In this document: in pieces, positions 35,155 to 53,346 of the stretch
Layout: every line of letters begins with the position of its first letter
Numbering within the stretch: position 1 is the first letter of the stretch
From: an uncultured Porphyromonadaceae bacterium
GTDB lineage: Bacteria; Bacteroidota; Bacteroidia; Bacteroidales; Muribaculaceae
DNA: 64,000 nt
Direction: 5' to 3'
Assembly: GCA_947073495.1 (NCBI GenBank)
Contig: CAMTMX010000001.1
Location: 38,812 to 102,811 of the forward strand
Translations under genes and position numbers: made by a program
The notes under the pieces: generated by a model
Database searches by the model: none
The model's input: the letters and a program-made list of their open reading frames with translations, nothing else
What the model was told of the DNA's origin: nothing

Positions 35155-36678
35155 TTATCTCAATTTCTTACCCCATACCGATCTTCCATTTGAGTCGAGA
35201 CCTGTAAACAATATGGTGTCGGTCTCTCTTTCCCAGTCATGGCCCGCATGGAGAATCAGGTCAGTGATTATTTCTCCATTTATAGTGACATTGAGTAACT
35301 GACCTTTTTCATCAAGTTCCCATTTATCTTTCACTGTGCCCTTTCCGGAAATGGTTTCACCGTATGTGACATTATCCAACTTTAATGTGCCGTCACAGGA
35401 AAAAGACACGGAAAAAGAATCGTTCCACTCCCCTTTCTTCAAATCTCCTTCTCCCCATAAAATCTGACCCGCCTCAAGCCGGCGTTCCGCACGAGGTTCG
35501 GATACTCTTATAAATTCCCATTCCCCCTGCAAGTCTGAGGAAGAAAATTTCTTTGGATTCACTCCGGCGTATCTTTCGGGAGAAACGACCGGCCATCCGG
35601 ATGGAGTCATGAACACTTGTCTCAGATGAAGCACCATTAACCCTGAATCTTTAGCATACCTTCCCTGATGTGCCATGAAATAATTACCTTCCCCGTCGTC
35701 AAACACGCCACAATGAGCAGTCCCTACCCACCCGGAATGATTCTCAAATCTATAGGGTGCCGTCAGGATCGGGAAATTGTTGGTGGTGTCGCTCACTACA
35801 TTCCCTTTGAAATCGTAGAACGGACCCTCGGCACTCTCGGCACGCGCAACACGCACGTTGTAAGTGGTCATCAGGGGTTCGTAGCTTTGGAAAAGATAAT
35901 ACTTTCCGGTTGTCTCATGCCGGATTATCTCGGGAGCTTCCAGATTGTCTTTTCTCCAGTTTGCACGACGCGCCACGAGATGCCCCTGATCACCTGCTTT
36001 CATGACGAGTCCGGTCGCGGGATTCAGTTCCACACAATACAATCCTCCGAAATAAGATCCGTAATGCATCCATTGTTTCCCGTTTTCATCGGTAATTACA
36101 GAAGGGTCTATTGCGTTCATTTTAGAACTTTTGTCAGTGCGTACCACCGCACCTTTCTGAATCCAGGGACCTTCAGGAGAAGCCGCTTCTGCCATACCGA
36201 TATAAGAAGTGTTCATTCCGAATGCCGATACACAATAATACAGACGGAAATTGCCGTCGCCGCAGTCTACCATATAAGGAGCCCATATATTGGTGGCTCC
36301 TTTGCCGTCAGCTTTCTCTTTGACCCAAGCAACCGCCTCTGCAGGGATCTCCGGGAATACCCATCCGAGAAATTCCCAGTTGACGAGATCTTTCGATCTC
36401 CGCATCTGGATATATCCTAACGGAACATTTTTCTCCCGAGCCGCCTTGCGGTTTTCACGGTAGATGGCGTCAGTGGAATACATATAATAATAATCGCCCA
36501 CCTTTCGGCAAGCCGGATCGTGGACATTATATGTGCCCCAGTCTTTCCAGTTTTCCATCCCGGAGAGGTGGGTGTAGTCATCAGTCCAGGGGTTCGGTCT
36601 TGAAACCGGCGTGAAACCTTCCGACAGCATGGGAAGCGCAAAGAATGCCGCAAGACATATAGATGTAAAGAATTTCAT
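35155..36678 (-). CDS. Glycoside hydrolase family 43 with C-terminal lipocalin-like module
   Basis: A 507-residue secreted enzyme (signal peptide ends near LSEGF). The five-bladed GH43 propeller shows NVHDPACRKVGDYYYMYSTDA with the base Asp at about residue 54, NAIDPSVITDENGKQW with the second Asp, and LEAPEIIRHETTGKYY with the acid Glu. From about residue 400 a beta-rich module follows (LQGEWEFIRVSEP to the C-terminus), also present in the GH43 at 53347-55251. This layout is typical of endo-1,5-alpha-L-arabinanases. Specificity is inference. It is divergent from the HTCS gene, and its promoter carries the same operator as the SusCD operon. Confidence 0.85.
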   Translation of the reverse strand: MKFFTSICLAAFFALPMLSEGFTPVSRPNPWTDDYTHLSGMENWKDWGTYNVHDPACRKVGDYYYMYSTDAIYRENRKAAREKNVPLGYIQMRRSKDLVNWEFLGWVFPEIPAEAVAWVKEKADGKGATNIWAPYMVDCGDGNFRLYYCVSAFGMNTSYIGMAEAASPEGPWIQKGAVVRTDKSSKMNAIDPSVITDENGKQWMHYGSYFGGLYCVELNPATGLVMKAGDQGHLVARRANWRKDNLEAPEIIRHETTGKYYLFQSYEPLMTTYNVRVARAESAEGPFYDFKGNVVSDTTNNFPILTAPYRFENHSGWVGTAHCGVFDDGEGNYFMAHQGRYAKDSGLMVLHLRQVFMTPSGWPVVSPERYAGVNPKKFSSSDLQGEWEFIRVSEPRAERRLEAGQILWGEGDLKKGEWNDSFSVSFSCDGTLKLDNVTYGETISGKGTVKDKWELDEKGQLLNVTINGEIITDLILHAGHDWERETDTILFTGLDSNGRSVWGKKLR

Positions 36679-36788
36679 GAAGATAATAGATTTGTTATGT
36701 AGATTGATAAATTCTCTTTATTGGGAAATACTCCCATCAGTTCCATTTGCAAAATTATCTAATCGCATCCTTAATGAGGTGTAATATT

Positions 36789-36845
36789 CAATCTTATTTG
36801 ACTGAAAGGGAGGTGTAGGGTGGATTTTTGAATAGAAAAGGTGGA
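36789..36845 (-). promoter_or_regulatory. Putative HTCS operator and -7 box of the GH43 gene
   Basis: On the minus strand TCCACC occurs at 36845-36840 and again at 36824-36819, exactly 21 bases apart, within TTTTTCCACC and AAAATCCACC. A -7-like box TAAGATTG (one mismatch to TAnnTTTG) begins 23 bases after the second copy, at 36796-36789. Repeat spacing and distance to the box are almost the same as at 41248-41306. The site may also serve the divergent HTCS gene. Confidence 0.6.
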
Positions 36846-36894
36846 AAAAATAAGTTATGAGGGTGAAAATGTATAAAATGGTCAAAAAATGTTA

Positions 36895-36902
36895 TAAATT
36901 TG
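36895..36902 (+). promoter_or_regulatory. Candidate -7 box of the HTCS gene
   Basis: TAAATTTG fits TAnnTTTG and lies 75 bases before the HTCS ATG. The TCCACC pair ends 50 bases upstream, so autoregulation is possible. Confidence 0.4.
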
Positions 36903-36977
36903 TACATCTAAAAAGGGACTTTACTCCCGAATGCTTTCATAGCGACTGACATATTCACTGACCTTACTGAATCGTGC

Positions 36978-39900
36978 ATGAAACTCAACCGACTCATAAC
37001 TTTACTGGCAATCTCTTTGGCGTGGCTGTTTTCAAAAGCGGCATATCCACAAACCATATCCCTGATAAATACGTTTCCCGAAAACTATTCCGTCAGCTTC
37101 ATCACGATGCAGGAAGGATTGTCGCACAATTTTGTGGAAGACATCTTCCGTGACAGTAAGGGATATATGTGGATTGCCACATCCAGTTCCTTGTCACGTT
37201 ATGACGGCTATGAATTTGTGAATTTCACACCAAATTCTATTTCCAGACATATAAAAAGCACGTTTGTACGCAAAGTTGCGGAAGACAAGTTCGGGCGCCT
37301 GTGGGTTGCCAGCGACGGCGGTGTCGACATAATCAACCTTAATGACCTTAGCCCCGTAGATCTCTCCGCCGACAAGACCTTTAAGGAAATAGCCATGACG
37401 CCTGCTTTCTATATCACTTCGGATAAGGATTCAAATATATGGCTCAGAAACAGTAAAGATGTGGTCTGCGTTCAATTTGATGATAACGGAAATATACGCG
37501 ATATAGCGACTCTTCCTCACCAAACCACCGCCACAATCACATTGGGAGCCATCGAGTCATTGCCGGGGATAGACAAGGGGGTGTTGACAGGTGTTGCCGG
37601 GAATATATGTCTGCTGACTATTGAAGCCGGCAAAATAAATTCGAAGCCATTGTCTCCCGCCCTGTCGCTCGACCCTTCGAACTATATAGCAGATTTCATA
37701 CAGGCGGGCAATCATATATGGATAGCCACGGATGCCGGTCTTTATTGTTACGACATCTCTTCTCAGAATGTGAAGGTTTATAACGGAGGAGACGGAAAGC
37801 CGGGAAGTCTTTCCCAGACATTTGTCACGTCTTTGGAATTGACGGGCAACGGAGAGCTTATCGCGGGATGTCTTAACGGCATCAATATCTATGACCCTGC
37901 AACAGACGGGTTTTATCCGGTATCGGCATCCGACATCGACGGCAGACCCCATGGTCTTAACAATGATTTCATAAACTGTCTTATTGCCGAGGGGGATAAT
38001 CTTTGGGTAGGGACCGAGGGGTGTGGAATCAATTTATTTTCTCCCCGCAAACTCTATTCAAAGATGTTGCGTCATGATTCTTCCAATCCAGAATCCCTTT
38101 CGCCGCACCCGGTCAATGCAATTTTTGAGGATGGCGACGGGACCTTATGGGTCGGGACAGTTGAAGGGGGATTGAACAAAGGCATGAGCGGATATGACAA
38201 CGGGTTCATGCATTTCACGTCTGCCAACGGAGCCCTCCCCCATAATTCTGTCAGTGCCATCACTGCCGACCATACGGGACACTTATGGGTCGGGACATGG
38301 GGAGGGGGATTGTGTATGCTCGACAAGAGTAATCCCACCAAGACCTTACGGCTTCTCAATAAGGTAGAGGATGGAAGACGTCTGGAATATATAGGAGCAT
38401 TGGCGTATGATCCATATAACAACCTTATATGGATAGGGGCTAATTTTGGAATATTCATATACGACATCACAACCGACAAACTGTCGGTCCCGTTTAAGGA
38501 TGCAGACATTATCAGGGGAAGCGTTTCCATGGTCTTGGCTCCCGACGGCAGACTCTGGATAGGCGGTCTTGAAGGCGTTTTGGCTGTCAATCTCAAGAGA
38601 AGTGTGCGGAGTGGAGATTTTGAATTTGTGCATTACCCCAATAAACTTGATAATCCTGACTCTTCTGTCAATGAGAAGGTGACTTGTATAGCCCTTGCCC
38701 ATGACGGCACGATATGGGTGGGGACAAACGGGAATGGAATATACTGTTTTGACGGGGATGTAGCCTCCGGCAGGTTTGTAAACTACAATTCGTCTGACGG
38801 ATTGCCCAACGATGTGGTTCATGGCATAGCCGAAGATCCACATGGAAACCTCTGGATCGCTACATATCATGGGTTATCCTGTATGACGGCAACAGGAAAT
38901 TTTATTAATTTCGGACTAAACAACGGTCTGGATACAGAGCAGTTTTATTGGAATGCCTATCGCCGTCTTGCCAACGGTGATATCCTTTTCGGCAGTGTTG
39001 ACGGAATGTTGGCGATCAAGGGTCTTTCCGCCTCGGGACTTACACCGTATCCTGTTCATTTCACTTTTCTGACTGTAGACAATGACAAGACTTATGGAAA
39101 TCCGGTCTCTGCCAGCATACCTGAGAATGACCGTTCGTTTGAGATCGGTTTTTCGTCGTTCGATTATGCCGGCGAATCAAACGGCAGGTATCTTTATCGG
39201 ATGGTGGGATATGAGGAGGAATGGAAAGAGTTGGCAGCCGGCAGACATAGCGTAGCTTATATGAATCTATCCCCCGGAGACTACAGGCTTGAAGTCAAAT
39301 ATGTGGGACATGGACAATCTGCCGATTCGGCGCCGGTTTCAAGTTTTGAAATAGAGATAGTGCCCCATTTTTATAAGAGATGGTGGTTTATAATTCTTGT
39401 TGCCGCCGCCCTCTTGGTAAGTGTGCTTGCCGTATATAAATGGAGAATAAAAGACTTGACCCGTCAGCGCAACGAACTCAAGAAGGCTGTCGACGAGAGT
39501 GTCAAAGAGATTACAGAACAGAAATCGCTTCTCGAAGTGCATGCGCATGAATTGAGTGAGCAAAATATAGAATTGAAGCTGCGCAACGAGCAGATAAGCG
39601 AGCAGAAGAGTCAGCTTTCCGAAATGGCGGGGAAGGTGCAACAGCTCACCGCCGACCGTATTTCATTCTTTACAAATATCACACATGAATTCCGCACGCC
39701 GATCACATTAATTATCGGTCCGATAGAGCGTGCCTTGAAACTTAGCACCAATCCCAAGGTGATAGAACAGTTGAATTTTGTGGAGCGTAATTCACGCTAT
39801 CTCCTGTCGCTTATCAATCAGTTGATGGATTTCCGCAAGATAGAGTCCGGAAAAATGGAGAAAGTGACAGTAAAAGGTAATATCCGCACATTGATCGACG

Positions 39901-41207
39901 AGATCATCCTCCCCTTCCGTGCATACGCCGAGGAAAGGGGGATAGAGATACGCGCCATGTATCATCTTTCCACTCCGGTGTTTAATTTCAATGAAGACGC
40001 CATACGGAAAGTGCTTACCAATCTTTTGGGGAATGCAATCAAGTTCACTCCCGATAATGGAAAGGTTTCTGTCTATGCGTCGATCTTCAGGAATGAAAAA
40101 TGTGGAGACGGCAATATCTTTTATCTTTGTGTAAGCGACACGGGATGCGGACTGAAAGAAGACGAGACGGATAAGGTGTTTGATCATTTCTATCAGGGAC
40201 AAAGCCAGATAAAATATCCGCTAATCGGGGCAGCCGACAGCGGAATAGGGCTATATCTGTGCCGTAGGCTTGTGGAGGTGTATGGCGGCACAATCAACGC
40301 ACGCAACAACCATGGCACGGGGTGCTCGTTTAGAGTGCTTATGCGGGTGGATGGAGCAGAGATAGAAAATTTACCAGCAGGTGGCTCATTGCTGTTGCCG
40401 GCGGCTTCACATGAAGAAAACCAGTCAGACCGCCGTCAGACCGTGCTTGTGGTGGAAGACAATCCCGATATGAGGGGCTTCATGCGATCTGTGCTTGGAG
40501 ACCATTATAGTGTGGAAGAGGCGGGGAACGGGGAGGAGGCGCTTCTCCTTCTTGAAAAGAAAGACGTGGATTTCATTATCAGCGACCTTATGATGCCGGT
40601 GATGGATGGTCTTGAACTTGCGGGTAAAGTGAAGGAAAATTTTGCAATATCCCACATCCCGTTCATCATGCTTACAGCAAAGACTTCGCAGGAATCAAGG
40701 ATGGAGGGGTATCGCAAAGGAGTAGACGACTATATATTAAAGCCGTTTGACGAAGAAATGTTGCTTACAAGAATAAACAATATCCTTGCCAACAAGCGCC
40801 GTTATCAGCGGAAATTTGTGTCAGACATGCAGGTCGATCATCTTGAAATAAAAGAGGAGAGCCGCGACAAAAAGTTTGTCAATAAGGTGATGGAGGTTTT
40901 GAAGGATAATTATACCAATTCATATTACGAGGTTGGAGAGTTTGCGGATGCTCTCGGCGTTAGCAGGAGTCTTCTCAACAAGAAACTCCAGAGCCTTATG
41001 GGACAAGGGGCAAACCAGCTGATGCGCATGTATCGTCTTAAGGTGGCGCATGAATTGATCATGCAAAATCAGGGAACGAAGAATATGAACGTATCGGAAG
41101 TTGCATTTCAAGTAGGGTTTAACGATTCAAAATATTTTACCCGCTGTTTCACCAAACAATACGGAGTGAATCCGAGTGTATTGCTTAAAGGGGCGCCCAA
41201 TAATTAA
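36978..41207 (+). CDS. Hybrid two-component system regulator (HTCS)
   Basis: A 1409-residue one-protein signalling system. A signal peptide (to about residue 25) leads to a periplasmic sensor of repeated propeller blades (GLSHNFVEDIFRDSKGYMWIAT and many GxLWVGT phrases), then a Y_Y_Y domain and a membrane helix at about 802-824. The cytoplasmic part has a coiled coil, HisKA (phospho-His903 in THEFRTP), an ATPase domain (NLLGNAIKF, DTGCGL, GIGLYL), a receiver (phospho-Asp1203 in ISDLMMP) and a C-terminal AraC-type DNA-binding domain (VSEVAFQVGFNDSKYFTRCF). It should sense an oligosaccharide in the periplasm and activate the flanking GH43 and SusCD genes. All key residues are present. Confidence 0.95.
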   Translation: MKLNRLITLLAISLAWLFSKAAYPQTISLINTFPENYSVSFITMQEGLSHNFVEDIFRDSKGYMWIATSSSLSRYDGYEFVNFTPNSISRHIKSTFVRKVAEDKFGRLWVASDGGVDIINLNDLSPVDLSADKTFKEIAMTPAFYITSDKDSNIWLRNSKDVVCVQFDDNGNIRDIATLPHQTTATITLGAIESLPGIDKGVLTGVAGNICLLTIEAGKINSKPLSPALSLDPSNYIADFIQAGNHIWIATDAGLYCYDISSQNVKVYNGGDGKPGSLSQTFVTSLELTGNGELIAGCLNGINIYDPATDGFYPVSASDIDGRPHGLNNDFINCLIAEGDNLWVGTEGCGINLFSPRKLYSKMLRHDSSNPESLSPHPVNAIFEDGDGTLWVGTVEGGLNKGMSGYDNGFMHFTSANGALPHNSVSAITADHTGHLWVGTWGGGLCMLDKSNPTKTLRLLNKVEDGRRLEYIGALAYDPYNNLIWIGANFGIFIYDITTDKLSVPFKDADIIRGSVSMVLAPDGRLWIGGLEGVLAVNLKRSVRSGDFEFVHYPNKLDNPDSSVNEKVTCIALAHDGTIWVGTNGNGIYCFDGDVASGRFVNYNSSDGLPNDVVHGIAEDPHGNLWIATYHGLSCMTATGNFINFGLNNGLDTEQFYWNAYRRLANGDILFGSVDGMLAIKGLSASGLTPYPVHFTFLTVDNDKTYGNPVSASIPENDRSFEIGFSSFDYAGESNGRYLYRMVGYEEEWKELAAGRHSVAYMNLSPGDYRLEVKYVGHGQSADSAPVSSFEIEIVPHFYKRWWFIILVAAALLVSVLAVYKWRIKDLTRQRNELKKAVDESVKEITEQKSLLEVHAHELSEQNIELKLRNEQISEQKSQLSEMAGKVQQLTADRISFFTNITHEFRTPITLIIGPIERALKLSTNPKVIEQLNFVERNSRYLLSLINQLMDFRKIESGKMEKVTVKGNIRTLIDEIILPFRAYAEERGIEIRAMYHLSTPVFNFNEDAIRKVLTNLLGNAIKFTPDNGKVSVYASIFRNEKCGDGNIFYLCVSDTGCGLKEDETDKVFDHFYQGQSQIKYPLIGAADSGIGLYLCRRLVEVYGGTINARNNHGTGCSFRVLMRVDGAEIENLPAGGSLLLPAASHEENQSDRRQTVLVVEDNPDMRGFMRSVLGDHYSVEEAGNGEEALLLLEKKDVDFIISDLMMPVMDGLELAGKVKENFAISHIPFIMLTAKTSQESRMEGYRKGVDDYILKPFDEEMLLTRINNILANKRRYQRKFVSDMQVDHLEIKEESRDKKFVNKVMEVLKDNYTNSYYEVGEFADALGVSRSLLNKKLQSLMGQGANQLMRMYRLKVAHELIMQNQGTKNMNVSEVAFQVGFNDSKYFTRCFTKQYGVNPSVLLKGAPNN

Positions 41208-41247
41208 GTTTTTAACCAATACTTAAAAATTTTTAAGGAATTTTAGT

Positions 41248-41306
41248 TTGTCCACCACCTTTACTCAATTGTCCACCATATACGCGCGTGGAAACACCTA
41301 ATTTTG
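41248..41306 (+). promoter_or_regulatory. Putative HTCS operator and promoter of the SusCD operon
   Basis: TTGTCCACCA is repeated directly at 41248-41257 and 41269-41278, a 21-base period that places both copies on the same DNA face. A TAATTTTG -7 box follows at 41299-41306, 22 bases after the second TCCACC. No -33 TTTG is present, fitting an activator-dependent promoter where the second repeat occupies that region. The predicted leader is about 70 bases. Confidence 0.65.
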
Positions 41307-41384: not shown

Positions 41385-43214
41385 ATGAAGACAGAGAAAT
41401 GGATGCCAGCGGCAGCCCTTGCTGTTCTACTGACCACGATGACATCTTGCGAAGACTGGGGACAACAGGACCCGCCTGCAGGAAATCAGGTTTATCCAAC
41501 CCTGGAAAACGTGGCGGCTTTTGATTTTGATGCGGATGAGGGACTGGATCTTGCCATGTTCACCCCAGTCGCGAATCCCGGCGGGAGCACTCCCCAGATT
41601 ATTGAAGACGAAATCAAGGGGAAAGTGCTTGAACTTAACAACGGACATGTGTTTTTATCCAACCCGTTTTCGAAGACGACACTTCAGAAGGCGGCTTCTT
41701 TCACATTCTGGATGAAACAGCCGGTGCAGACCGTCACCGACACAGATGGAAATGAGGTGAATGAGCCTCAGGATCTGTCTGCAACTCTATTGATGTTTGA
41801 AAACGAGACCGGCAACGGAACTCTTTCAATCAATGCCAACGGAGGAATCAAATATTCGGCGGCAGACGGGGAATGGACCGAAAACGATCCTTCTTCGGTA
41901 ACTACCGGCTACATGACTCCCGGTGACTGGCATTATGTAGCTGTCGTTCTCAATAATGACGGCTATGAATGGTATGTTGACGGTGACAGAAAGGTAAGCA
42001 AGACTGTCACAGAATTCGATTGCTCGAAACTTGTGAAGTTTGCCAACAATGTGCCCACGATGATTATCGGCGGCACAGAAAATTCATCGCTGTTGCTTGT
42101 GGATGATCTGAAAATCTATCGCAACGCCTTGACGGAAAAAGAGATCGCTCGTCCTAATCTTGGAGGTGGTGAAGGTCCTTCCGGTCCGGATTTAAGCACC
42201 TGGACTCTTGTCGGGCTTGAAGACAACACCACAGGATTCTGGAGCATGTGGGCGGATTACGTAAACCTTACCGGAGACGGCACCGTACATTATGATTTCT
42301 ACAACTATCATGGCGGAAAGAATGATAACTGGTGCAACTGGGGACTTGTGCTCACCAACGGTCCGGAGCGTGGAGCCGACGGTTATGCGGAATATCTCTA
42401 CCTGCGCGCAGACGCCTACGGATGGGGCAACAACTATAACGGCGACAATATCACCCATGATTTCGATTGGGGTACCTTCATGTCGGAAATGGACGGAGCG
42501 TTTGTGTCTCTTGATATTACGAGGAAAGGGACAGATGTGACGGTGACAGCTCTTGTTACTGCCGAAAACGGCACCGAAAGACACTATTCTATCCGTGTTG
42601 AGGGTGTAGACAGCGAAGTGCTTGGCACATTCCTTACATGCGAGGGTTCACACCTGCTTATCAATCCGCAGACAGTATTCGTGGGTCAGACATATACCGC
42701 CGGGCAATATGTCACCGGACAGACTGACTGCAGCACAGGATGGTGGTCGGCACATTCACCCAACAACCGTTTCGACGGCAATTTCAAGAACTGGGGAGTA
42801 GAATTTGTGAACCATACGACAGGTGCAGGTGCCAACTGGAACAACTGGCTCCTCGTATGTTCCAATGGCCCATGGGTAGGAGAAGCAGGTTATGCCGAGA
42901 ACTTTGTGCTCCGTTCTGATGCCTACGGCTGGGGCGCAAGCTTCGATGGTGGCAACACTACAATGGAACAGGCTTTTGATTGGGAAACTTATGTGGCCGA
43001 CATGAAAGATGCCAATGTAAAGATTCTCTTCTCATACTCGGCAGGGACTCTTGACATGTATTGCACCCAGACCACTGCCGACGGCAGGGAGATGCCCCCT
43101 TATAAATTCTCGGCAAGTTCACTGACAGCCCCTATAGGACTTTTCTTCACATGCGAGCTGGCATGGCTTGAGTTCAGCAAGGTGGGATATTATCCCTGGG
43201 CGACTATGGAATAA
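41385..43214 (+). CDS. LamG-containing surface glycan-binding lipoprotein
   Basis: A 609-residue lipoprotein (lipobox to Cys22, TMTSC). Residues ~45-265 form a LamG/concanavalin-like fold (FTFWMKQPV, GDWHYVAVVLNNDGYEWYVDG, VDDLKIYRNALTEKEI). Two tandem copies of a beta-sandwich module follow (about 273-432 and 433-609). They share NW-x-L-V-x-x-NGP, GYAE, LR-x-DAYGWG, FDW and a final FLTCE or FFTCE. The conserved aromatics suggest carbohydrate binding. It has no catalytic motif. As first gene of the operon, directly before susC, it probably acts as a cell-surface glycan-binding protein, although such proteins more often follow susD. The repeated module was not recognised as a named family. Confidence 0.75.
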   Translation: MKTEKWMPAAALAVLLTTMTSCEDWGQQDPPAGNQVYPTLENVAAFDFDADEGLDLAMFTPVANPGGSTPQIIEDEIKGKVLELNNGHVFLSNPFSKTTLQKAASFTFWMKQPVQTVTDTDGNEVNEPQDLSATLLMFENETGNGTLSINANGGIKYSAADGEWTENDPSSVTTGYMTPGDWHYVAVVLNNDGYEWYVDGDRKVSKTVTEFDCSKLVKFANNVPTMIIGGTENSSLLLVDDLKIYRNALTEKEIARPNLGGGEGPSGPDLSTWTLVGLEDNTTGFWSMWADYVNLTGDGTVHYDFYNYHGGKNDNWCNWGLVLTNGPERGADGYAEYLYLRADAYGWGNNYNGDNITHDFDWGTFMSEMDGAFVSLDITRKGTDVTVTALVTAENGTERHYSIRVEGVDSEVLGTFLTCEGSHLLINPQTVFVGQTYTAGQYVTGQTDCSTGWWSAHSPNNRFDGNFKNWGVEFVNHTTGAGANWNNWLLVCSNGPWVGEAGYAENFVLRSDAYGWGASFDGGNTTMEQAFDWETYVADMKDANVKILFSYSAGTLDMYCTQTTADGREMPPYKFSASSLTAPIGLFFTCELAWLEFSKVGYYPWATME

Positions 43215-43245: not shown

Positions 43246-46200
43246 ATGGATAAAAAAGGAATAACAGCCGAAGGACGGCGGGGCAATATGCTCCTCCTCC
43301 TCCTCCCGGTTCTCCTTCTGATGCTTGCCGTATTCCCGGCGGGCGCGGAAATTGTGAAAGGAGTGGTCAGCGACGCTTCAGGAGAACCTCTTATTGGCGC
43401 TACAGTCATAGAAAAAGGAACAACCAACGGCACAGCTACCGATATCGACGGTTTCTTCCAGTTAAATCTGAAAGACGCCAAGAAAGGTGTGCTTGTGGTG
43501 TCATACGTTGGTTATGCCACCCAGGAGGTGGAAGTGAAAGGACAGACAGATCTACAGATCACTCTCCAGGAGGAATCTTCTCTTCTTAACGAAGTAGTGG
43601 TGGTAGGTTATGGTCAGCAAAAGAAAGAGTCGGTGGTGGGAGCAATCTCCCAGGTCAATTCCGGCGATCTTCTGGAGACTCCCTCCGCCAACCTTTCCCA
43701 GGCGATCACCGGCAAGATTCCCGGTGTGATCACTTCTCAGACTTCGGGTGCGCCCGGTGCGGACGACGCCTCGATCTACATCCGCGGACGTGCAACATTC
43801 GCAGGTGACGCCCAGCCTCTTATCCTTGTTGACGGCGTTGAGCGTTCTTTCTCCCAGATCGCGCCAGACGATATCGAGACAATCTCTGTGCTTAAGGATG
43901 CTTCGGCAACTGCCGTATATGGCGTGCGAGGTGCGAACGGCGTTATGCTTATCACCACAAAACGAGGTAAGGAACAAAAACCGATCGTGAACCTTACCGC
44001 CTCATGGCAGTTCTAGACCCCTACCCGCAAGAATACGTATCTGAACTCATATGAGTCGGTCTCCCTTCTTGAGGAGGCTCTTGCCAACGACGGTCTTCCC
44101 TCTCAGTATTCCTCGTATGACCTCGACATGTATCAAAAATCAGTCAACGGTCAGTTGAGCGGAGTTGAGGCTCTCCTTTACCCCAACGTAGACTGGTATG
44201 ACGAGATTCTGCGCTCTTCCGCCCCCTCGCAGCGCTACAACGCAAGTGTACGCGGCGGAACAAAGAGAATGCGTTACTACGCTTCTTTAGAATATTACGA
44301 TCAGGAATCTCTTTTCAAGAATCTTTCAAAAGACCCTTACGGCAACTCCACATCTTTGAATTATAAAAGATATGGTTTCCGTGCGAACGCCGATTTCTTC
44401 CTGACAAAAGATCTTCAGTTGTCAGTGAATTTCGGAACCCGTTTCGAGGAACGCCGAGGCCCTAACTCAGACGAAAGAGACGACGGTTCATACAGTAATG
44501 TATTCTATCAGCTGAACCATACGCCGGGATGGCTTTTCCCCGTGGCATACGAGGTGCAGAACGGAGAGACAACCAAGACTCTCTACGGAGGAAGCTCACA
44601 ATATCAGAGCAATGTCTATGCCACTCTTGCCGAATCGGGATACTACAAGGGAGTCAATACTGTCAACGAAACGAACTTTATTGCAGACTACAAGATGGAT
44701 TGGCTAACCCCGGGACTTTCGGCACGAGGGATGGTGAGCTTCGACTATGAAAATTATCATAAGACCACCTACAGCAAGTCTTTTGCCACATACGAGCTTA
44801 ACGACCGTGACAACTACCAGAGCATTGACGCCTATAACCGGTTTAATACCGATGGCACAATGACGAGCAGAAAAACCAGCTTCACTGTCTATAAGCTTTA
44901 TATGGAGGCTCAGTTGAACTATGCACGTAAGTTCGCAGATCTCCATGACGTGACAGCCATGGTGCTTTATATGCAGAACGACTATCGCTACCAGAGCGAC
45001 CTCGCCAAACGTTATCAAGGTGTGGTAGGGCGTGTCACATATGCATACGACGACCGCTATCTTTTCGAGTTCAATGCCGGATACAACGGTTCCGAGAACT
45101 TTATGAAAGGTAAACGTTTCGGTTTCTTCCCCGCATTCTCGGCAGGTTGGCGAATCACTCAGGAGAAATTTATGGAAAATTCCACCGATTGGCTCAACAA
45201 CCTTAAACTGCGCGCATCATACGGTCAGGTAGGTAATGATGTATATCAGGTCGGGGGTGTGCAGCAGCGATTCCTTTATGAGCAGAAATGGAGTCAGATC
45301 GCAAACGATTACTACTTTGGCACATCCGGTCAGACAGGTATTTTTGAAGAACAGTATCCTAACTATGGGGTGACCTGGGAACGTGCCCATAAATACAATG
45401 TGGGTCTTGAATTCGGGCTGTTCAACAATTCGCTTAGCGGTAATATCGATTTCTTCTGGGAAAAGCGCAACAATATTCTTACGGAATATCTCACACGTCC
45501 ATGGTGGTTTGGTGTGACATCTGCAGCCGGAAACCTTGGTAAGACTGAAAACAAGGGTTTTGAAATCGAACTTCATTACAGCAACAAAATCGGAAACGAT
45601 TTCAAATATAACATAGGGGGAACCTACTCTCACGCGAAGAACAAGATCACAGAGATGGACGAACCTGCCAACAAAACGGACTACCGCAAGCGTACAGGCC
45701 ATGCAATCGGTCAGTATTTCGGGCTTGTGGCAGACGGATTCGTGACTCAGGCTGACATCGATGGCGGAAATCTGCCCACATCTACATTCGGCACCGTGAA
45801 GCCCGGCGATCTCAAATATCGCGACATGAACGGCGACGGATTTATTGACGACCGCGACGAGACATTTATAGGATATTCCGATATTCCGGAAAACACATAC
45901 GCCATCACTCTCGGCGCGGAATGGAAAGGTATCGGATTCAGCATCATGTTCCAAGGTGTGGATCACGTGAGCCGCTATTATGATGCGGAAGCGATGTATG
46001 CCTTTGTCAACGGCGGCAAGGTGAAAGAACATCATCTTGACCGTTGGAACCCTGCACTTTCAGAATCGGAGAATCTCGCGAATGCCAAATATCCCCTCCT
46101 TCACTACGACAGCTATGGCGACCATAACCAGCGGACCAACTCCTTCTTCCTGAAGAACGGTTCATTCTTCCGTCTGAAGAATATCGAACTCTCCTATTCC

Positions 46201-46374
46201 CTCCCGGAAAAATGGATCAAACACGCTTACATGAGCCAGTGCCGTTTCTTCGTAAACGCCAACAACCTCGTGACATGGGATCATCTTAACGGGCTGACCG
46301 ACCCTGAGAGCAACGGGTCGAACCGCTATCCTATCTGCAAGACTGTCAACTTTGGTGTCAACATCCAATTCTAA
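43246..46374 (+). pseudogene. SusC-like TonB-dependent transporter interrupted by an in-frame TAG
   Basis: The frame encodes a full SusC-like outer-membrane transporter (1042 residues) except for TAG at 44014-44016. Before it are a signal peptide, a carboxypeptidase-like domain (VVSDASGEPLIGATVIEKG), the SusC signature NEVVVVGYGQQKKESVVGAI and the plug (ILVDGVERSFSQIAPDDIETISVLKDASATAVYGVRGANGV). The barrel continues in the same frame to 46374 and ends VNFGVNIQF. Upstream context W-Q-F-stop-T-P-T-R matches the paralogue's VGFQTLTG, so the ancestral codon was probably CAG. As written, translation gives a 256-residue plug fragment. The remaining barrel has no start with a signal peptide. It may be a real loss, a strain variant or a sequencing error. 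Confidence 0.85.
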
Positions 46375-46386
46375 TCTGATATCGAA

Positions 46387-48156
46387 ATGAAAAAATCATA
46401 TAAATTCTTAGCGTTGGCTTTCATGCTCAGTGGTGTCTCCGCGTTGACTTCGTGTGGAGACTTCCTCGACAAGCAGCCGTCTAACGAGCTTACAGAAGAT
46501 AAGACTCTCGGCAGCTGGAGCATGTTTGAATATTTCCACAACGATACATATAATTTTATTCGTCATGGCGCCAACCGTATAAATGGCTCATGGCTGGATG
46601 CCGCCACGGATCTTGCCGAGACGTCGTTCGCTACCGGAGGCGCCCGCACAACCTTTAATATAGGCAACTATTACGGAGGCGGAGGCACCTCGGAATTCAA
46701 TGACACATGGGAATCACGTTATCGTGCCATCCGCAAATGCAACAGGGTGATCAATCAGATGGATCTCGTGCCTAAAGATATCACAAAAACCGAAGAGCAG
46801 GAGTTGCGCGACCGTGCCATAATGCGTGCGGAGGCTCGCACATTCCGCGCATATTTCTATTGGGAGTTGTTTCTCCGTTTCGGTCCGCTGCCTATTGTGA
46901 CAGAGGTGCTCGATCCGGACGAAGATATGATCTCCCCCTATTCAAAGCGTCCTTCTGTGAGGGAATATGTGGTTGATTTCATTCTTAAAGAGTTGGAAGA
47001 ATCAGAGCCGGACCTGCTTTCATATACAGATGCCTGGAGCGCCAACAGAATCGGAAGGCTTTCCCAGCCAATGGCCCGGGCTCTTGCCTCACGAATTAAA
47101 CTCTATATGGCTTCTCCGAGATATGCCGCCGAAAGCGGAGTGACCTGGCAGGATGCCGCTGATGCCGCCAACAGTTTCATTCAGGACTTCGGCGCCAATT
47201 TCGGTCTGTTTTCTGAAGCAAATATCGACCCTGCCGAGAATTATGCCAATGCAGTGCTCCGCACACAATATACCGGTAATAACAACGAGGTCATCTTTTT
47301 CCGTAACGATGTGGCTATCGGATGGGCTAATATATCTCAGGATACTCCTGTAGGAGAAGGCGGGAGCGGAGGAAACTGTCCCTCTCAGAATCTTGTGGAT
47401 ATGTATGACATGATCGACGGCTCGTCTCCATTCGCGCAGTATGACGCCACCGGCGCGCCGGTTTATCCTTCAGGCTCACTGGTGCCGGCAATCAATGAGG
47501 AAAGCGGATATAGCGATGCGGAGATGTGGGAGAACCGCGATCCTCGTTTGAGGGCTACAGTGCTTTATCAAGGCACTCCTTGGGGAACAACGCGCGACAA
47601 CAGTACAATCGACGTACGTCCCGGAATGGCAGACAATCCAACCGGCAATGCCAATGCAACTCCGACAGGCTATTATATGCGCAAATATATCCCCGCTTCT
47701 ATCCTTAGCTCGAACCATAGCGGATCTGCCTACCGCCTTTGGACCGTCATCCGATATGCGGAGATCCTTATGAACTATGCGGAGGCTATGAACGAGGTCA
47801 ACGGTCCCTGCCAACAGGTTTTTGATATGCTTGACCAGGTGCGCCATCGCGCCGGTATAACCGGAAGCGTAGCCGATCGTCAGGACCTTTCGAGCAAGGA
47901 AGCCATGCGTAATTTCATTCACAAGGAGCGCACGGTGGAATTCGCTTTTGAAGAGCACCGTTCTTGGGATGTACGCCGCTGGAATGTGGCTGTCGAGGCT
48001 CTCAGCCGTCCGATCTATGGAGTGAATGTCGCTATGGACGGCACAGTGACCCGCAAGAAAGCTCAGGATCGTGTGTTTGAAGAGCGTATGTATCTCTATC
48101 CAATACCAGAGGGAGAGATCTGGAAGACAAATCTGGAAAACAATCCGGGATGGTAA
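46387..48156 (+). CDS. SusD/RagB-family glycan-binding lipoprotein
   Basis: A 589-residue lipoprotein (lipobox to Cys23, LTSC) in the SusD family. The N-terminus CGDFLDKQPSNELTEDKT is diagnostic. TPR-like helices include RAEARTFRAYFYWELFLRFGPLPIV, and the C-terminal part has YAEILMNYAEAMNEVNG, VRHRAGI and ERTVEFAFEEHRSWDVRRW. It caps a SusC barrel and delivers oligosaccharide to it. It starts 12 bases after the interrupted susC and is intact itself. Confidence 0.93.
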   Translation: MKKSYKFLALAFMLSGVSALTSCGDFLDKQPSNELTEDKTLGSWSMFEYFHNDTYNFIRHGANRINGSWLDAATDLAETSFATGGARTTFNIGNYYGGGGTSEFNDTWESRYRAIRKCNRVINQMDLVPKDITKTEEQELRDRAIMRAEARTFRAYFYWELFLRFGPLPIVTEVLDPDEDMISPYSKRPSVREYVVDFILKELEESEPDLLSYTDAWSANRIGRLSQPMARALASRIKLYMASPRYAAESGVTWQDAADAANSFIQDFGANFGLFSEANIDPAENYANAVLRTQYTGNNNEVIFFRNDVAIGWANISQDTPVGEGGSGGNCPSQNLVDMYDMIDGSSPFAQYDATGAPVYPSGSLVPAINEESGYSDAEMWENRDPRLRATVLYQGTPWGTTRDNSTIDVRPGMADNPTGNANATPTGYYMRKYIPASILSSNHSGSAYRLWTVIRYAEILMNYAEAMNEVNGPCQQVFDMLDQVRHRAGITGSVADRQDLSSKEAMRNFIHKERTVEFAFEEHRSWDVRRWNVAVEALSRPIYGVNVAMDGTVTRKKAQDRVFEERMYLYPIPEGEIWKTNLENNPGW

Positions 48157-48213: not shown

Positions 48214-51200
48214 ATGAACCACATCATAAATCATATAAGGAACAAGGTAAAACCCGCTTTCACGGCAGCTGTCATCACCGGCTGGTCTGTAGCGGCGTTT
48301 GCCGCCCCTACAGGAAATATCCTCAAAGGTCGTGTAGTCGATCCTGAAGGGAATCCTATCCCGGGGGCTGTGGTGAATCTTGCCGAGCAAAGCAAAGTCG
48401 TGTTCACCAACGAAAACGGAGAGTTCTCTATTAAAGACGCCAACTATGACGATGAGGTCAACGCCACCTGCACGGGCTACCTTACATCAATAATTCCTGT
48501 TGAGGATTTCAGTGCGCCGATCGAGATCGTGTTGCAGCCGGACACTGATCCTTATGCGCATCTTGCGCCGGTGGCTTTCGGGGAACAGCAGAAAAAATTG
48601 CTTACCGATTCCCGTTCAGTAGTGACCGGCGAGGAGCTTCAGCGTTATCCCGTCACTGTGCTTCAGAATGCCTTCAACTCCCTTTTGACAGGCGTGGAGA
48701 CATATGAGGTGTCTTCAGAACCTGGCTGGTCTGAGACTAAAATGTATGTGCGCGGTATCCGCACCCTTAACTCAAATGCACGCAACCCTCTGGTCATAGT
48801 CGATAATGTGGAGCGAGACCTCTCCTTCCTCGACGCTTTCCCTATTGAATCCGTGACAGTGCTGAAGGATGCTGCCGCCACTGCACTTTATGGCATGCGA
48901 GGAGCGAATGGCGTCATCCTGGTGACCACTAAACGAGGCGAGGCGGGAAAGACGCACATCAATTTCACTCAGGAGGTAGGTTTCCAGACTCTCACTGGCA
49001 AAGTGGAAAACCAGAATTCCTATAATCTTGCGTTGACAAAGAATCAGGTGCGTTATCTTGATGGAAAAGACCCAATCTATTCCCCGGAACAGATTGAGAA
49101 ATATCGTCGCGTATGTTCCGGAGAGACCCTTGATGGTATGGACCGTTACCGTTATTTCAATACCAATTGGTTTGATGAGCTTTATCGCGAGACAGCCCCT
49201 GTGGTCAAGACCAACCTCCAGATTTCGGGAGGCAACAACCGCGCGCGATACTATGTGTCGTTCTCATATCTACGTCAGGAAGGTATGTGGAACTCTAAAG
49301 GCACGAGTTTTAATGATCGTTTTTCGACACAACATGTTCTCAACCGTTGGAACCTGCGTTCCAACCTTGACATTAATGTCAACAAATATCTCCGTGTAGG
49401 TCTTGACCTCGGCGGACGTATTGATAATATTCTTCAACCCACCACCAGGGTGTTTGACCTTACTACCTTCGGCGCCGTGGAAGCGGATCCCATGCGTCCG
49501 GTCTATTGCCCGAACGGCGAACTGTATGTGGACGGAAGCGCCAACAACCCTACATTTCAACTTGGGTCGTCAGGTCAGGAGAAGAACCGCAGACGCCAGC
49601 TTTATTCAACTGTCGATGTGACAGGAATACTTGATCCGATCACCAAAGGTCTGGAAGCAAATCTTGTTGTCAGCTTTGATGCATTCGATGTGTTCCAGTC
49701 GACTCAGACAAACCGTGTCAACTCATATTCTTATGATTTCACAAATATGGCGGTGGAGAATGTGGATGACTTCACCTATACTCAGACCAACCGTTATTCT
49801 GAATTGACTAATCCTTCCGCTAACGAACGCGCCAATTCCTGGACCCTCAACACCCGGTTCGGGTTCAAGTATGACCGTGAATTCGGAGATCACCGAGTAC
49901 AGGCAAACGCTTTCATCCGTGCCTATCAGCAACGTCTCAATGTGAAGGAGGCGAATACCGACAATTCGATGTATTCATCCGACCGTTATCTTTCCTACAA
50001 CGGATCGCTTGCATATATCTACGGCGGACGTTATATCGTGTCTGGAAATATCTCCCGTATGGGTAATGACAACTTCGCCCCCGGCGACCAATGGGGCACA
50101 TTCTGGGGAGCATCTCTCGGTTGGGTGCTTTCGGAAGAAAAATTCCTGAGGAATCCGAATATCGATCTTCTGAAATTCCGTGCCTCCTATGGTAAGTCGG
50201 GTATGAGCGACACAGGCGCAGGACGCTATCCCTATCAGTCTACTTTTGCAACTTCAGGAGGTTACAGTTTCGGACACAATGCCACACTTGTGCCGGGATT
50301 TATAGAAAGTGTAGCCGGCAATCCTAACAGCAAATGGGAGATTTCGAAGATGCTCAACCTTGGACTTGACTGGGACTTCTGGCATCACCGCCTCTATGGT
50401 TCGTTTGATGTCTTCAAGGAATGGCGTAGCGACATCCTCATAGAACGCTCCACAAACCCCGATATCCTCGGTATCACTTTCGCCCGCGATTCATATGGCA
50501 AGGTGGAGAGCCGTGGTCTTGAACTGACAATCGGTCATTCAAACAAGATCGGCAACGTAACCTACACGGTGGAAGGTATGCTTTCATGGAACAAGAACAA
50601 GATTATAGAGATGGATGAGATCGCGCCCTCTGTAGAATGGCAGCGCAAGACAGGAGACCGCATCCGTGATTATGCTTCCGTGGCTTCTATCTACGAATGG
50701 GAAAACAGGGACGTTGTCGGCGGTTGGAACGCTTACCGCTTCAACGGCTGGGCTTCAGATCCCGCACTCATCTCGACTTCACAGGCTGACGCTATCGCGC
50801 ACCCCGAGAAATATCCTTACAACACATTTTCGGGAGGAGGCCAGAAACTCGGCACGGCGGTGTTCCGCGATCTTAACGGAGACCGTCAGATCGACTCACG
50901 CGACATGGAACCCTACGGATATACCCTTATCCCTGATCTCACGCCCTCTATCTCGATTTATGCCGCCTACAAGGGATTCGACCTGAAAGTGATAGGCACC
51001 GCATATCTGAACCGCTCAGTGTTCCTTTCCCCTTCAATGACATTCTCCGAATGGGGTAACAACAATGCCACTCACGAGGTTACGAAAGCATGGGGCTACT
51101 ACACGGACGATCCTATGGATCCGCGTAATATCAATGCAAAATATCCGCGTCTGAGCTATACCTATAACACAGAAGATTCTTCACGTGACAACGGTTCTTA

Positions 51201-51447
51201 TCAGAACGATATATGGATCATGAACGGTGATTATTTCTCACTCCGGAACATAGAGTTCGGCTATTCTCTCCCGACAAGCCTTATCTCCAAAATCCACATG
51301 AGCCAATGCCGCTTCTATTTCAGCGCATACAACATTGCCAACTGGAGCCACATGCCTGAGGGTATGGATCCGGAGAAGCCGATGTCTTATTGCTGGTGGT
51401 ATCCTAAAACCCGCACGTTTAATTTCGGTCTTCACATTGAATTCTAA
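48214..51447 (+). CDS. SusC-like TonB-dependent transporter
   Basis: A 1077-residue outer-membrane transporter. The signal peptide ends near AAFAAP. A carboxypeptidase-like domain (LKGRVVDPEGNPIPGAVVNL) precedes the plug (NPLVIVDNVERDLSFLDAFPIESVTVLKDAAATALYGMRGANGV) and a 22-strand barrel that ends in TRTFNFGLHIEF. The typical VVVVGYG phrase is replaced by LAPVAFGEQQKK, so the N-terminal part is divergent. It imports oligosaccharides with TonB energy together with the SusD at 51532. It is the only intact SusC in this locus. Confidence 0.94.
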   Translation: MNHIINHIRNKVKPAFTAAVITGWSVAAFAAPTGNILKGRVVDPEGNPIPGAVVNLAEQSKVVFTNENGEFSIKDANYDDEVNATCTGYLTSIIPVEDFSAPIEIVLQPDTDPYAHLAPVAFGEQQKKLLTDSRSVVTGEELQRYPVTVLQNAFNSLLTGVETYEVSSEPGWSETKMYVRGIRTLNSNARNPLVIVDNVERDLSFLDAFPIESVTVLKDAAATALYGMRGANGVILVTTKRGEAGKTHINFTQEVGFQTLTGKVENQNSYNLALTKNQVRYLDGKDPIYSPEQIEKYRRVCSGETLDGMDRYRYFNTNWFDELYRETAPVVKTNLQISGGNNRARYYVSFSYLRQEGMWNSKGTSFNDRFSTQHVLNRWNLRSNLDINVNKYLRVGLDLGGRIDNILQPTTRVFDLTTFGAVEADPMRPVYCPNGELYVDGSANNPTFQLGSSGQEKNRRRQLYSTVDVTGILDPITKGLEANLVVSFDAFDVFQSTQTNRVNSYSYDFTNMAVENVDDFTYTQTNRYSELTNPSANERANSWTLNTRFGFKYDREFGDHRVQANAFIRAYQQRLNVKEANTDNSMYSSDRYLSYNGSLAYIYGGRYIVSGNISRMGNDNFAPGDQWGTFWGASLGWVLSEEKFLRNPNIDLLKFRASYGKSGMSDTGAGRYPYQSTFATSGGYSFGHNATLVPGFIESVAGNPNSKWEISKMLNLGLDWDFWHHRLYGSFDVFKEWRSDILIERSTNPDILGITFARDSYGKVESRGLELTIGHSNKIGNVTYTVEGMLSWNKNKIIEMDEIAPSVEWQRKTGDRIRDYASVASIYEWENRDVVGGWNAYRFNGWASDPALISTSQADAIAHPEKYPYNTFSGGGQKLGTAVFRDLNGDRQIDSRDMEPYGYTLIPDLTPSISIYAAYKGFDLKVIGTAYLNRSVFLSPSMTFSEWGNNNATHEVTKAWGYYTDDPMDPRNINAKYPRLSYTYNTEDSSRDNGSYQNDIWIMNGDYFSLRNIEFGYSLPTSLISKIHMSQCRFYFSAYNIANWSHMPEGMDPEKPMSYCWWYPKTRTFNFGLHIEF

Positions 51448-51531: not shown

Positions 51532-53310
51532 ATGAACTCCAAAATATTATCAATAGCGGCTGTGGGTCTCCTCTCCCTGGGGGCGGCTTCCTGCAGCGAT
51601 TATCTCGACAAGGAGGTCGACCTAACCCTTCAGGCAGAGAATGTCTTTTCAGACTATGACCGTACGCGAGGCTATCTCGCCCAGCTCTACGATTATCTTC
51701 CCGATGCTTTTCAAGGTTATAACGATACTCAATATCGACTCTCACAAGATTGCATGACCGATAATGCAGTAGATTACTGGGGTGTGGCAAGATACCATTC
51801 CGTCATGGCTGATGCCTATGACGCCACCAACCATTGGTTTGCCGATTTTTATTGGTCAAGAGATTACTCCGGTATCCGTGGAGTCAACCAGTATCTCCTC
51901 AATGCACGTCCGGATGTTGTTGGAAATGCAGAAAAAACGGGCGATGACAGCCGCCTTTACGACCGATGGGATGCCGAAGCGAGAATATTGCGTGCCATTC
52001 TTCATTTTGACCTGCTATGCTGGTATGGCGATATCCCCATTGTGGCGGATGATGAAAACGGCACTCCGATAATCCTTGCGCCGTCTACCCCTCTACCCAA
52101 ACGCACGGCTGCTGCCGATGTCCTTAAATGGATTGCGGATGAATGTGACAAATATAAGGACAATCTCCCCTTCCGCTACAGTGATGAAACAGAGAACTGG
52201 GGCAGAATAAACGGTGCAGCCGCATACGCACTCAAAACACGCGCGCTTCTTTTCCGCGCATCTCCCCTCTTCAACCCCGGGAACGACGTTTCACGCTGGA
52301 CGGAAGCCGCAAATGCCGCAAAGGATTTCATAGCCAAGAACAGGATGCAAAGCAATCCCTATAGGCTTTATACAACCGACAGTAATGATCCCTCGCAGAA
52401 CTATTATCAGTGTTTTATTTCAAACCCTGTGCTCAACAACGAGTATATTCTGAGCCGTTCTGTCTGGACCACTCTTCAGATAGAGTTTTTCAATGCCCCC
52501 TGCGGCTTCACCGGCTCTATCAGCGCGACAGGTTATCTCAACCCGACACAGAATCTTGTGGATGCATACGAGACAATCAATGGTCTTCCGATTGATCAAG
52601 ATCCGTCGTATGATGCCCAAAATCCATATGTAAACCGTGACCCGCGTCTTGAGCAGACCATTCTCCACCATGGTTCCATATGGGGCGACGGCGATGAGGC
52701 GCGTCCGATAGACGTAAACAACGACGACACCCGTACCGGAGCGGATTATGCACGTGGCAACGGAGGAACCGCCACCGGTTATTATTCTAAAAAGTATCTT
52801 CACAACATCCGCTGGGACGGCACTGTGGGCAATCAGCGCCATGCGTGTCCGATTTTCCGCTACGCCGAGATACTCCTTGCCGCTGCGGAAGCGCTCAATG
52901 AGTCGGGACAGACCGGAGAGGCATACGACTATGTCAATCAGGTGCGTGCACGTGTAGGTATGCCTGCTTATTCAGGAATGAGCCAGGAGCAGTTGCGTGA
53001 GCGCATACAGAATGAAATTAGAATTGAATTCTGTTTTGAAGACCACAGGTATTTCGACATGCGTCGTTGGAAATTGTTTGAAAAGAATGGCGGCAGTGCG
53101 TCTGCCGAGGCGTCTCTTCCTCGCTATCGCCAGGTGTTCACACTTTACGGTGTTGCTGTAAGGGAAGGCTCTTCCCAGACTTTCAACTATGGTCTGAGCG
53201 ATATTGATTCTCACTATTCGTTTACAGCCCCGAAGAATTATTTCTTCCCGATTCCTTATGATGAGCTTCAAAAGACGGGATATCCTCAGACGCCCGGCTG
53301 GGAGCTTTAA
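51532..53310 (+). CDS. SusD/RagB-family glycan-binding lipoprotein
   Basis: A 592-residue SusD-like lipoprotein (lipobox to Cys21, AASC). CSDYLDKEVDLTLQAENVF is the family N-terminus, followed by AEARILRAILHFDLLCWYGDIPIV, then FRYAEILLAAAEALNESGQ, VRARVGM and RIEFCFEDHRYFDMRRWK. It pairs with the SusC encoded 84 bases upstream. It differs clearly in sequence from the SusD at 46387, so the two pairs probably bind different parts or sizes of the same glycan. Confidence 0.93.
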   Translation: MNSKILSIAAVGLLSLGAASCSDYLDKEVDLTLQAENVFSDYDRTRGYLAQLYDYLPDAFQGYNDTQYRLSQDCMTDNAVDYWGVARYHSVMADAYDATNHWFADFYWSRDYSGIRGVNQYLLNARPDVVGNAEKTGDDSRLYDRWDAEARILRAILHFDLLCWYGDIPIVADDENGTPIILAPSTPLPKRTAAADVLKWIADECDKYKDNLPFRYSDETENWGRINGAAAYALKTRALLFRASPLFNPGNDVSRWTEAANAAKDFIAKNRMQSNPYRLYTTDSNDPSQNYYQCFISNPVLNNEYILSRSVWTTLQIEFFNAPCGFTGSISATGYLNPTQNLVDAYETINGLPIDQDPSYDAQNPYVNRDPRLEQTILHHGSIWGDGDEARPIDVNNDDTRTGADYARGNGGTATGYYSKKYLHNIRWDGTVGNQRHACPIFRYAEILLAAAEALNESGQTGEAYDYVNQVRARVGMPAYSGMSQEQLRERIQNEIRIEFCFEDHRYFDMRRWKLFEKNGGSASAEASLPRYRQVFTLYGVAVREGSSQTFNYGLSDIDSHYSFTAPKNYFFPIPYDELQKTGYPQTPGWEL

Positions 53311-53346
53311 TTCAATTATTAATTGATAATTAGTAATTTGATATTT

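Follow-up and report, generated by a model that had tools for sequence, protein, structure and literature searches.

The E. coli regulator AraC, at araI1-I2, places AraC-type domains on direct repeats approximately 21 bp apart, and its downstream half-site overlaps the -35/-33 region. In Bacteroides thetaiotaomicron, operators predicted for 16 HTCSs are likewise direct repeats of two conserved sites with a mean period of 21 bp, and the recognized half-site varies by regulator (PMC3878776). The BT0365-60 operon, which encodes an endo-arabinosidase and two SusC/SusD pairs, was placed under HTCS_Ara-1 (PMC3878776). This regulator, BT0366, binds arabino-oligosaccharides and is needed for arabinan induction (PMC3404733, PMC3243724), and its regulatory domains bind at its own PUL by ChIP-seq (PMC3404733). 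The letters of a 31-bp AraR-site segment from the promoter of BT0365 were published by Chang and others (PMC4666351).

We analyzed a 64-kb stretch of DNA from the family Muribaculaceae (hereafter the window) that contains a locus resembling the HTCS_Ara-1 regulon. The HTCS gene (36978-41207, plus strand) encodes a 1409-aa protein with the complete domain set: Reg_prop propeller, Y_Y_Y, HisKA, HATPase_c, receiver and AraC-type DNA-binding domain. Its receiver carries the SHIP sequence, which has been tied to blocked DNA binding until phosphorylation (PMC11253607). The operon that follows on the plus strand encodes a lipoprotein-like LamG-domain protein corresponding in position to BT0365 (41385-43214), SusC-like transporter 1 (43246-46374), SusD-like protein 1 (46387-48156), SusC-like transporter 2 (48214-51447), SusD-like protein 2 (51532-53310) and, in the position of BT0360, an endo-arabinanase-like GH43 with a GH43_C domain (53323-55251). 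A second GH43 with a GH43_C domain is encoded divergently (35155-36678, minus strand); for both GH43 proteins, the nearest solved structures are mostly endo-arabinanases. The gene order matches BT0366 plus BT0365-BT0360, with a surface-protein gene, two SusC/SusD pairs and an endo-arabinanase gene beside the HTCS, a divergent GH43 gene and direct-repeat operators; on sequence grounds, we class it as a BT0366-type (HTCS_Ara-1) arabinan PUL. It differs from the B. thetaiotaomicron system in family, its HTCS being approximately 47% identical to the Bacteroides versions, and in the layout of the GH43 promoter described below. The frame of SusC-like transporter 1 is open apart from one in-frame stop at 44014-44016, which reflects either a sequencing error or a pseudogene. 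A 66%-identical HTCS orthologue in a congener (L006, genome G016) contains one in-frame TGA.

Both intergenic regions flanking the HTCS gene contain the direct repeat TCCACC-N15-TCCACC. The predicted operator of the SusCD operon lies at 41251-41277 (plus strand; half-sites 41251-41256 and 41272-41277), is conserved in orthologues and scores 27.7 bits with the matrix described below. A predicted distal operator of the GH43 gene lies at 36819-36845 on the minus strand, with TCCACC copies at 36845-36840 and 36824-36819, scores 13.3 bits and has congener counterparts. A prior sequence-only reading had placed TTGTCCACCA at 41248 and 41269, and TCCACC on the minus strand at 36845 and 36824, with copies 21 bp apart at both sites; all of these positions and spacings are exact. 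The similarity that it saw between the two repeats also holds, but its count of about 24 of 34 matching positions does not, as the two 34-mers match at 23. Apart from TCCACC at a spacing of 21, no 6-mer recurs with the same spacing in the two intergenic regions. Any common 6-mer and spacing arose in 3 of 4000 dinucleotide shuffles, and a common 6-mer with at least three G/C arose in none of 4000.

A matrix was trained on 30 sites from outside the Muribaculaceae and run over the 64-kb window, where only these two repeats exceeded 8 bits. The distal GH43 repeat scores barely above the best of five shuffles (12.7 bits), and its assignment therefore rests chiefly on its counterparts in congeners. 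As the reading had proposed, we scanned the organism's own genome (3.5 Mb, 183 contigs) for TCCACC-N15-TCCACC, which yielded four exact copies and none for a reversed control; two are those described here, and the other two lie inside long open frames. Genus-wide, the 12-base repeat taken alone, with no -7 box required, occurs at near-control frequency and is thus no marker by itself, so we rejected it as unspecific for this use. We also rejected a wider regulon in the organism's own genome, where exact and one-mismatch repeats occur at control frequency (31 versus 27) and those examined for coding overlap open frames.

The relation of the repeat to the promoter is tightly constrained. The SusCD operon has a -7 box, TAATTTTG, at 41299-41306 (plus strand), 21 bp after the second half-site. 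Of 39 unique sites, 34 are followed by a -7 box (TAnnTTTG) that starts 18-24 bp after copy 2, and all 34 boxes begin either 20 or 21 bp after it (17 each). The consensus of both copies is TTT[GA]-TCCACC. Relative to the -7 box, copy 2 falls at about -38 to -33 and copy 1 at about -59 to -54, which puts copy 2 at the place of the -33 element, as expected from the suggestion that the operator replaces a missing -33 element. None of these 34 sites has TTTG at the -33 place, although approximately two occurrences would be expected by chance and this is not a significant depletion alone. The downstream half-site over -33/-35 and the lack of a standard -33 element at these promoters are the features of class II AraC-type activation.

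The motif can be connected to B. thetaiotaomicron indirectly, with a locus from another genome, L059, standing for the BT0365 promoter. L059 contains the published 31-bp AraR-site segment of that promoter letter for letter, followed after a few bases by a TTTATCCACC...TTTGTCCACC repeat. From this adjacency, the TCCACC repeat very probably corresponds to the motif that was predicted for HTCS_Ara-1 in 2013 (PMC3878776). The 21-bp direct-repeat form of HTCS operators is already published; the window site itself is previously unrecorded. Our literature search returned no relevant paper naming TCCACC together with an HTCS, and in it we found no earlier description of an HTCS operator in the Muribaculaceae.

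The promoter of the divergent GH43 gene is arranged differently. The reading had identified a TAnnTTTG-like box after the second repeat copy on both sides of the HTCS gene; the one at 41299 is the SusCD box, whereas the one at 36796 was misassigned. That candidate, TAAGATTG (36789-36796, minus strand), has one mismatch to TAnnTTTG and no counterpart in congeners, and we rejected it. A perfect -7 box, TAATTTTG, lies instead at 36750-36757 (minus strand), and a perfect box is also found near the GH43 start in congeners L138, L139/L058, L006 and L007. L139 and L058 are identical in this region and probably represent one species. Exactly 20 bp before the box, these five distinct species have TACACC (three cases), TCCACC or TCTACC; in the window, this promoter-proximal half-site is TACACC (36778-36783, minus strand), and the strong repeat is 41 bp upstream of it. 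The distal repeat has counterparts in the same congeners, with one copy sometimes TTCACC. Genome-wide, TNCACC-N20/21-TAnnTTTG has eight matches, both promoters of the locus among them. A separate match of the proximal half-site and -7 box, on contig 9 of the same genome, overlaps no open frame of at least 80 aa.

We then considered how the repeat is distributed relative to the regulator, using HTCS homologues drawn from the genus, family and order, plus named genomes. The 35 homologue loci contain 34 TCCACC pairs with a separation of 6-60 bp, and in 24 of these pairs the spacing is exactly 21 bp; a few loci represent one species obtained from two sources, so the counts are partly non-independent. 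The repeat is conserved upstream of matching genes at HTCS homologues in Muribaculaceae, Bacteroidaceae and other families. It is usual near homologues with a tblastn score above approximately 1040; among those scoring lower, just two distant HTCSs (L025 and L166) have it. Several close homologues have no site in the DNA examined (L068, L080, L073, L067, L017/L018 and L019/L021). In a C-terminal alignment, the AraC domains of motif-bearing regulators share the helices VS[RK]SLLNKK and GFND[SP]KYF, and on a tree of the sensor and AraC domain the site label is strongly clustered, with 7 changes versus a shuffled mean of 23.4. The operators at L025 and L166 are perfect despite approximately 30% identity of these HTCSs, so the TCCACC specificity either predates the clade or evolved on more than one occasion.

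These data bear on whether the repeats could have arisen without a regulatory role or could serve a different protein. The shortness of TCCACC, and the occurrence of its bare repeat in the genus at about the control frequency, would fit an origin of the two copies by chance or by a recent DNA duplication; the shuffles, the matrix test and conservation at fixed spacing across families oppose this, the last already refuting it, and we regard its probability as negligible. A different DNA-binding protein, for example a free AraC-type regulator, might instead use the TCCACC repeats while the HTCS acts elsewhere. The full pattern TCCACC-N15-TCCACC-N20/21-TAnnTTTG has 11 matches in 393 genomes of the order (reversed control, none), and two of these have no HTCS within 10 kb, one at a GH127 PUL and one beside proS. 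The other nine, however, are accompanied by an HTCS or HTCS-derived gene, and the site accompanies the regulator in different families and gene layouts, even in relatives reduced to the sensor and AraC domain, leaving use by another protein very improbable.

It is somewhat less improbable, but still unlikely, that the SusCD site is an HTCS operator while the chief target of the repeat at 36819-36845 is the HTCS gene, for instance through autorepression, rather than the GH43 gene. The distal repeat lies approximately 130 bp before the HTCS start codon, and across the genus the strong repeat stands 41-66 bp farther upstream than is canonical for GH43, as this arrangement would allow. Against it, the distal repeat is oriented as an activator site for GH43, the half-site at the GH43 promoter persists in all five congeners, and in Bacteroidaceae the strong repeat occupies the canonical place of the divergent gene.

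We therefore return to the proposal, made in the sequence-only reading, that the repeats are the binding site of the HTCS whose gene they flank. Support comes from the 21-bp period, the constant distance to the -7 box, conservation with the HTCS clade and the nine of 11 order-wide matches, and we consider it highly probable that the TCCACC-N15-TCCACC elements are operators of the intervening HTCS, the Muribaculaceae counterpart of BT0366 (HTCS_Ara-1). In this model, arabino-oligosaccharides would bind the periplasmic propeller of the HTCS, and phosphotransfer would then free its AraC domains. Two such domains would occupy the half-sites on one face of the DNA, two turns apart. As the downstream half-site (about -38 to -33) would stand in for the absent -33 element, the bound dimer is predicted to recruit RNA polymerase to TAnnTTTG in a class II, AraC-like manner. 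The SusCD operon would use a single repeat at the -33-equivalent position, and the GH43 gene would use the weak proximal half-site TACACC at that position together with the strong repeat 41 bp upstream. The half-site geometry is that of AraC at araI, with direct repeats approximately 21 bp apart and the downstream half-site over -35/-33, and direct contact of the DNA-bound dimer with polymerase is thus, by analogy, the most likely mode. In contrast to the window system, whose promoter is of the Bacteroidota type, E. coli AraC is soluble and acts at a sigma-70 promoter. The model provides a testable, letter-level operator for an arabinan HTCS in the Muribaculaceae, placed relative to the -7 box, with which regulon prediction and inducible promoter design become possible.

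Two of the order-wide matches, as noted, have no HTCS in the surrounding 10 kb. At L165:9900-10010, divergent TCCACC operators with -7 boxes are found in a GH127/SusC locus lacking an HTCS over that distance, which suggests that this GH127 PUL is controlled in trans. The match at L167:9992 is a full operator-promoter beside proS with no PUL gene nearby.

Another of the 11 order-wide matches is accompanied by a shortened regulator. L164:4558-7518 encodes a 986-aa protein with a propeller, Y_Y_Y, a membrane segment and an AraC domain and no kinase or receiver. HTCS-like regulators of approximately 1000 aa without kinase or receiver are found in two Bacteroidaceae genera (L164:4558-7518, L172-L194 and L202-L206). 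In the L164 genus, such kinase-less genes are present in 20 of 80 genomes, nearly all at full length, and in six kinase-less regulators scanned further no kinase or receiver domain was detected. TCCACC-N15-TCCACC lies within the 1.5-kb flanks at 15 of the 20 loci, in 14 cases with a -7 box at 20-21 bp. At the loci in G363 and G824, the repeat is 2-4 kb away, and at that in G816 there is no TCCACC repeat in the approximately 6 kb examined on each side. The DNA examined around the L206 regulator likewise contains no TCCACC repeat, and the first recognition helix of this regulator is changed (NRSMLSRRL).

The kinase-less clade of the L164 genus falls inside the TCCACC-bearing HTCS clade, with the Muribaculaceae as the neighboring branch (98% SH-aLRT). 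The linker of the kinase-less clade, LQSRIEDILNNQRKL, is similar to the final receiver helix of the window HTCS, LLTRINNILANKRRYQ. In the second genus (L202-L204), the junction retains the coiled coil that follows the membrane segment and lacks a receiver helix, and the operator is kept. These junctions suggest two separate losses of kinase and receiver; the tree does not reject a single origin (AU p 0.547), nor does it require one, so the case for two origins rests on the differing junctions only.

Judging from these sequences, the operator probably belongs to a modular sensor-to-AraC unit that can work with or without a phosphorelay, the kinase and receiver having been lost in two Bacteroidaceae genera in which most regulators face the same TCCACC-N15-TCCACC-N20-TAnnTTTG promoters. 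If this is true, direct propeller-driven dimerization on DNA could replace HTCS signaling. We found no description of a kinase-less HTCS form in the literature searched, which was mainly open-access. Relatives that keep the operator without the kinase could show, as a natural experiment, whether a glycan signal can pass through an HTCS to DNA in the absence of a phosphorelay. In G824, a second HTCS-like gene (L205:12528-15662) lies immediately upstream of the kinase-less regulator.
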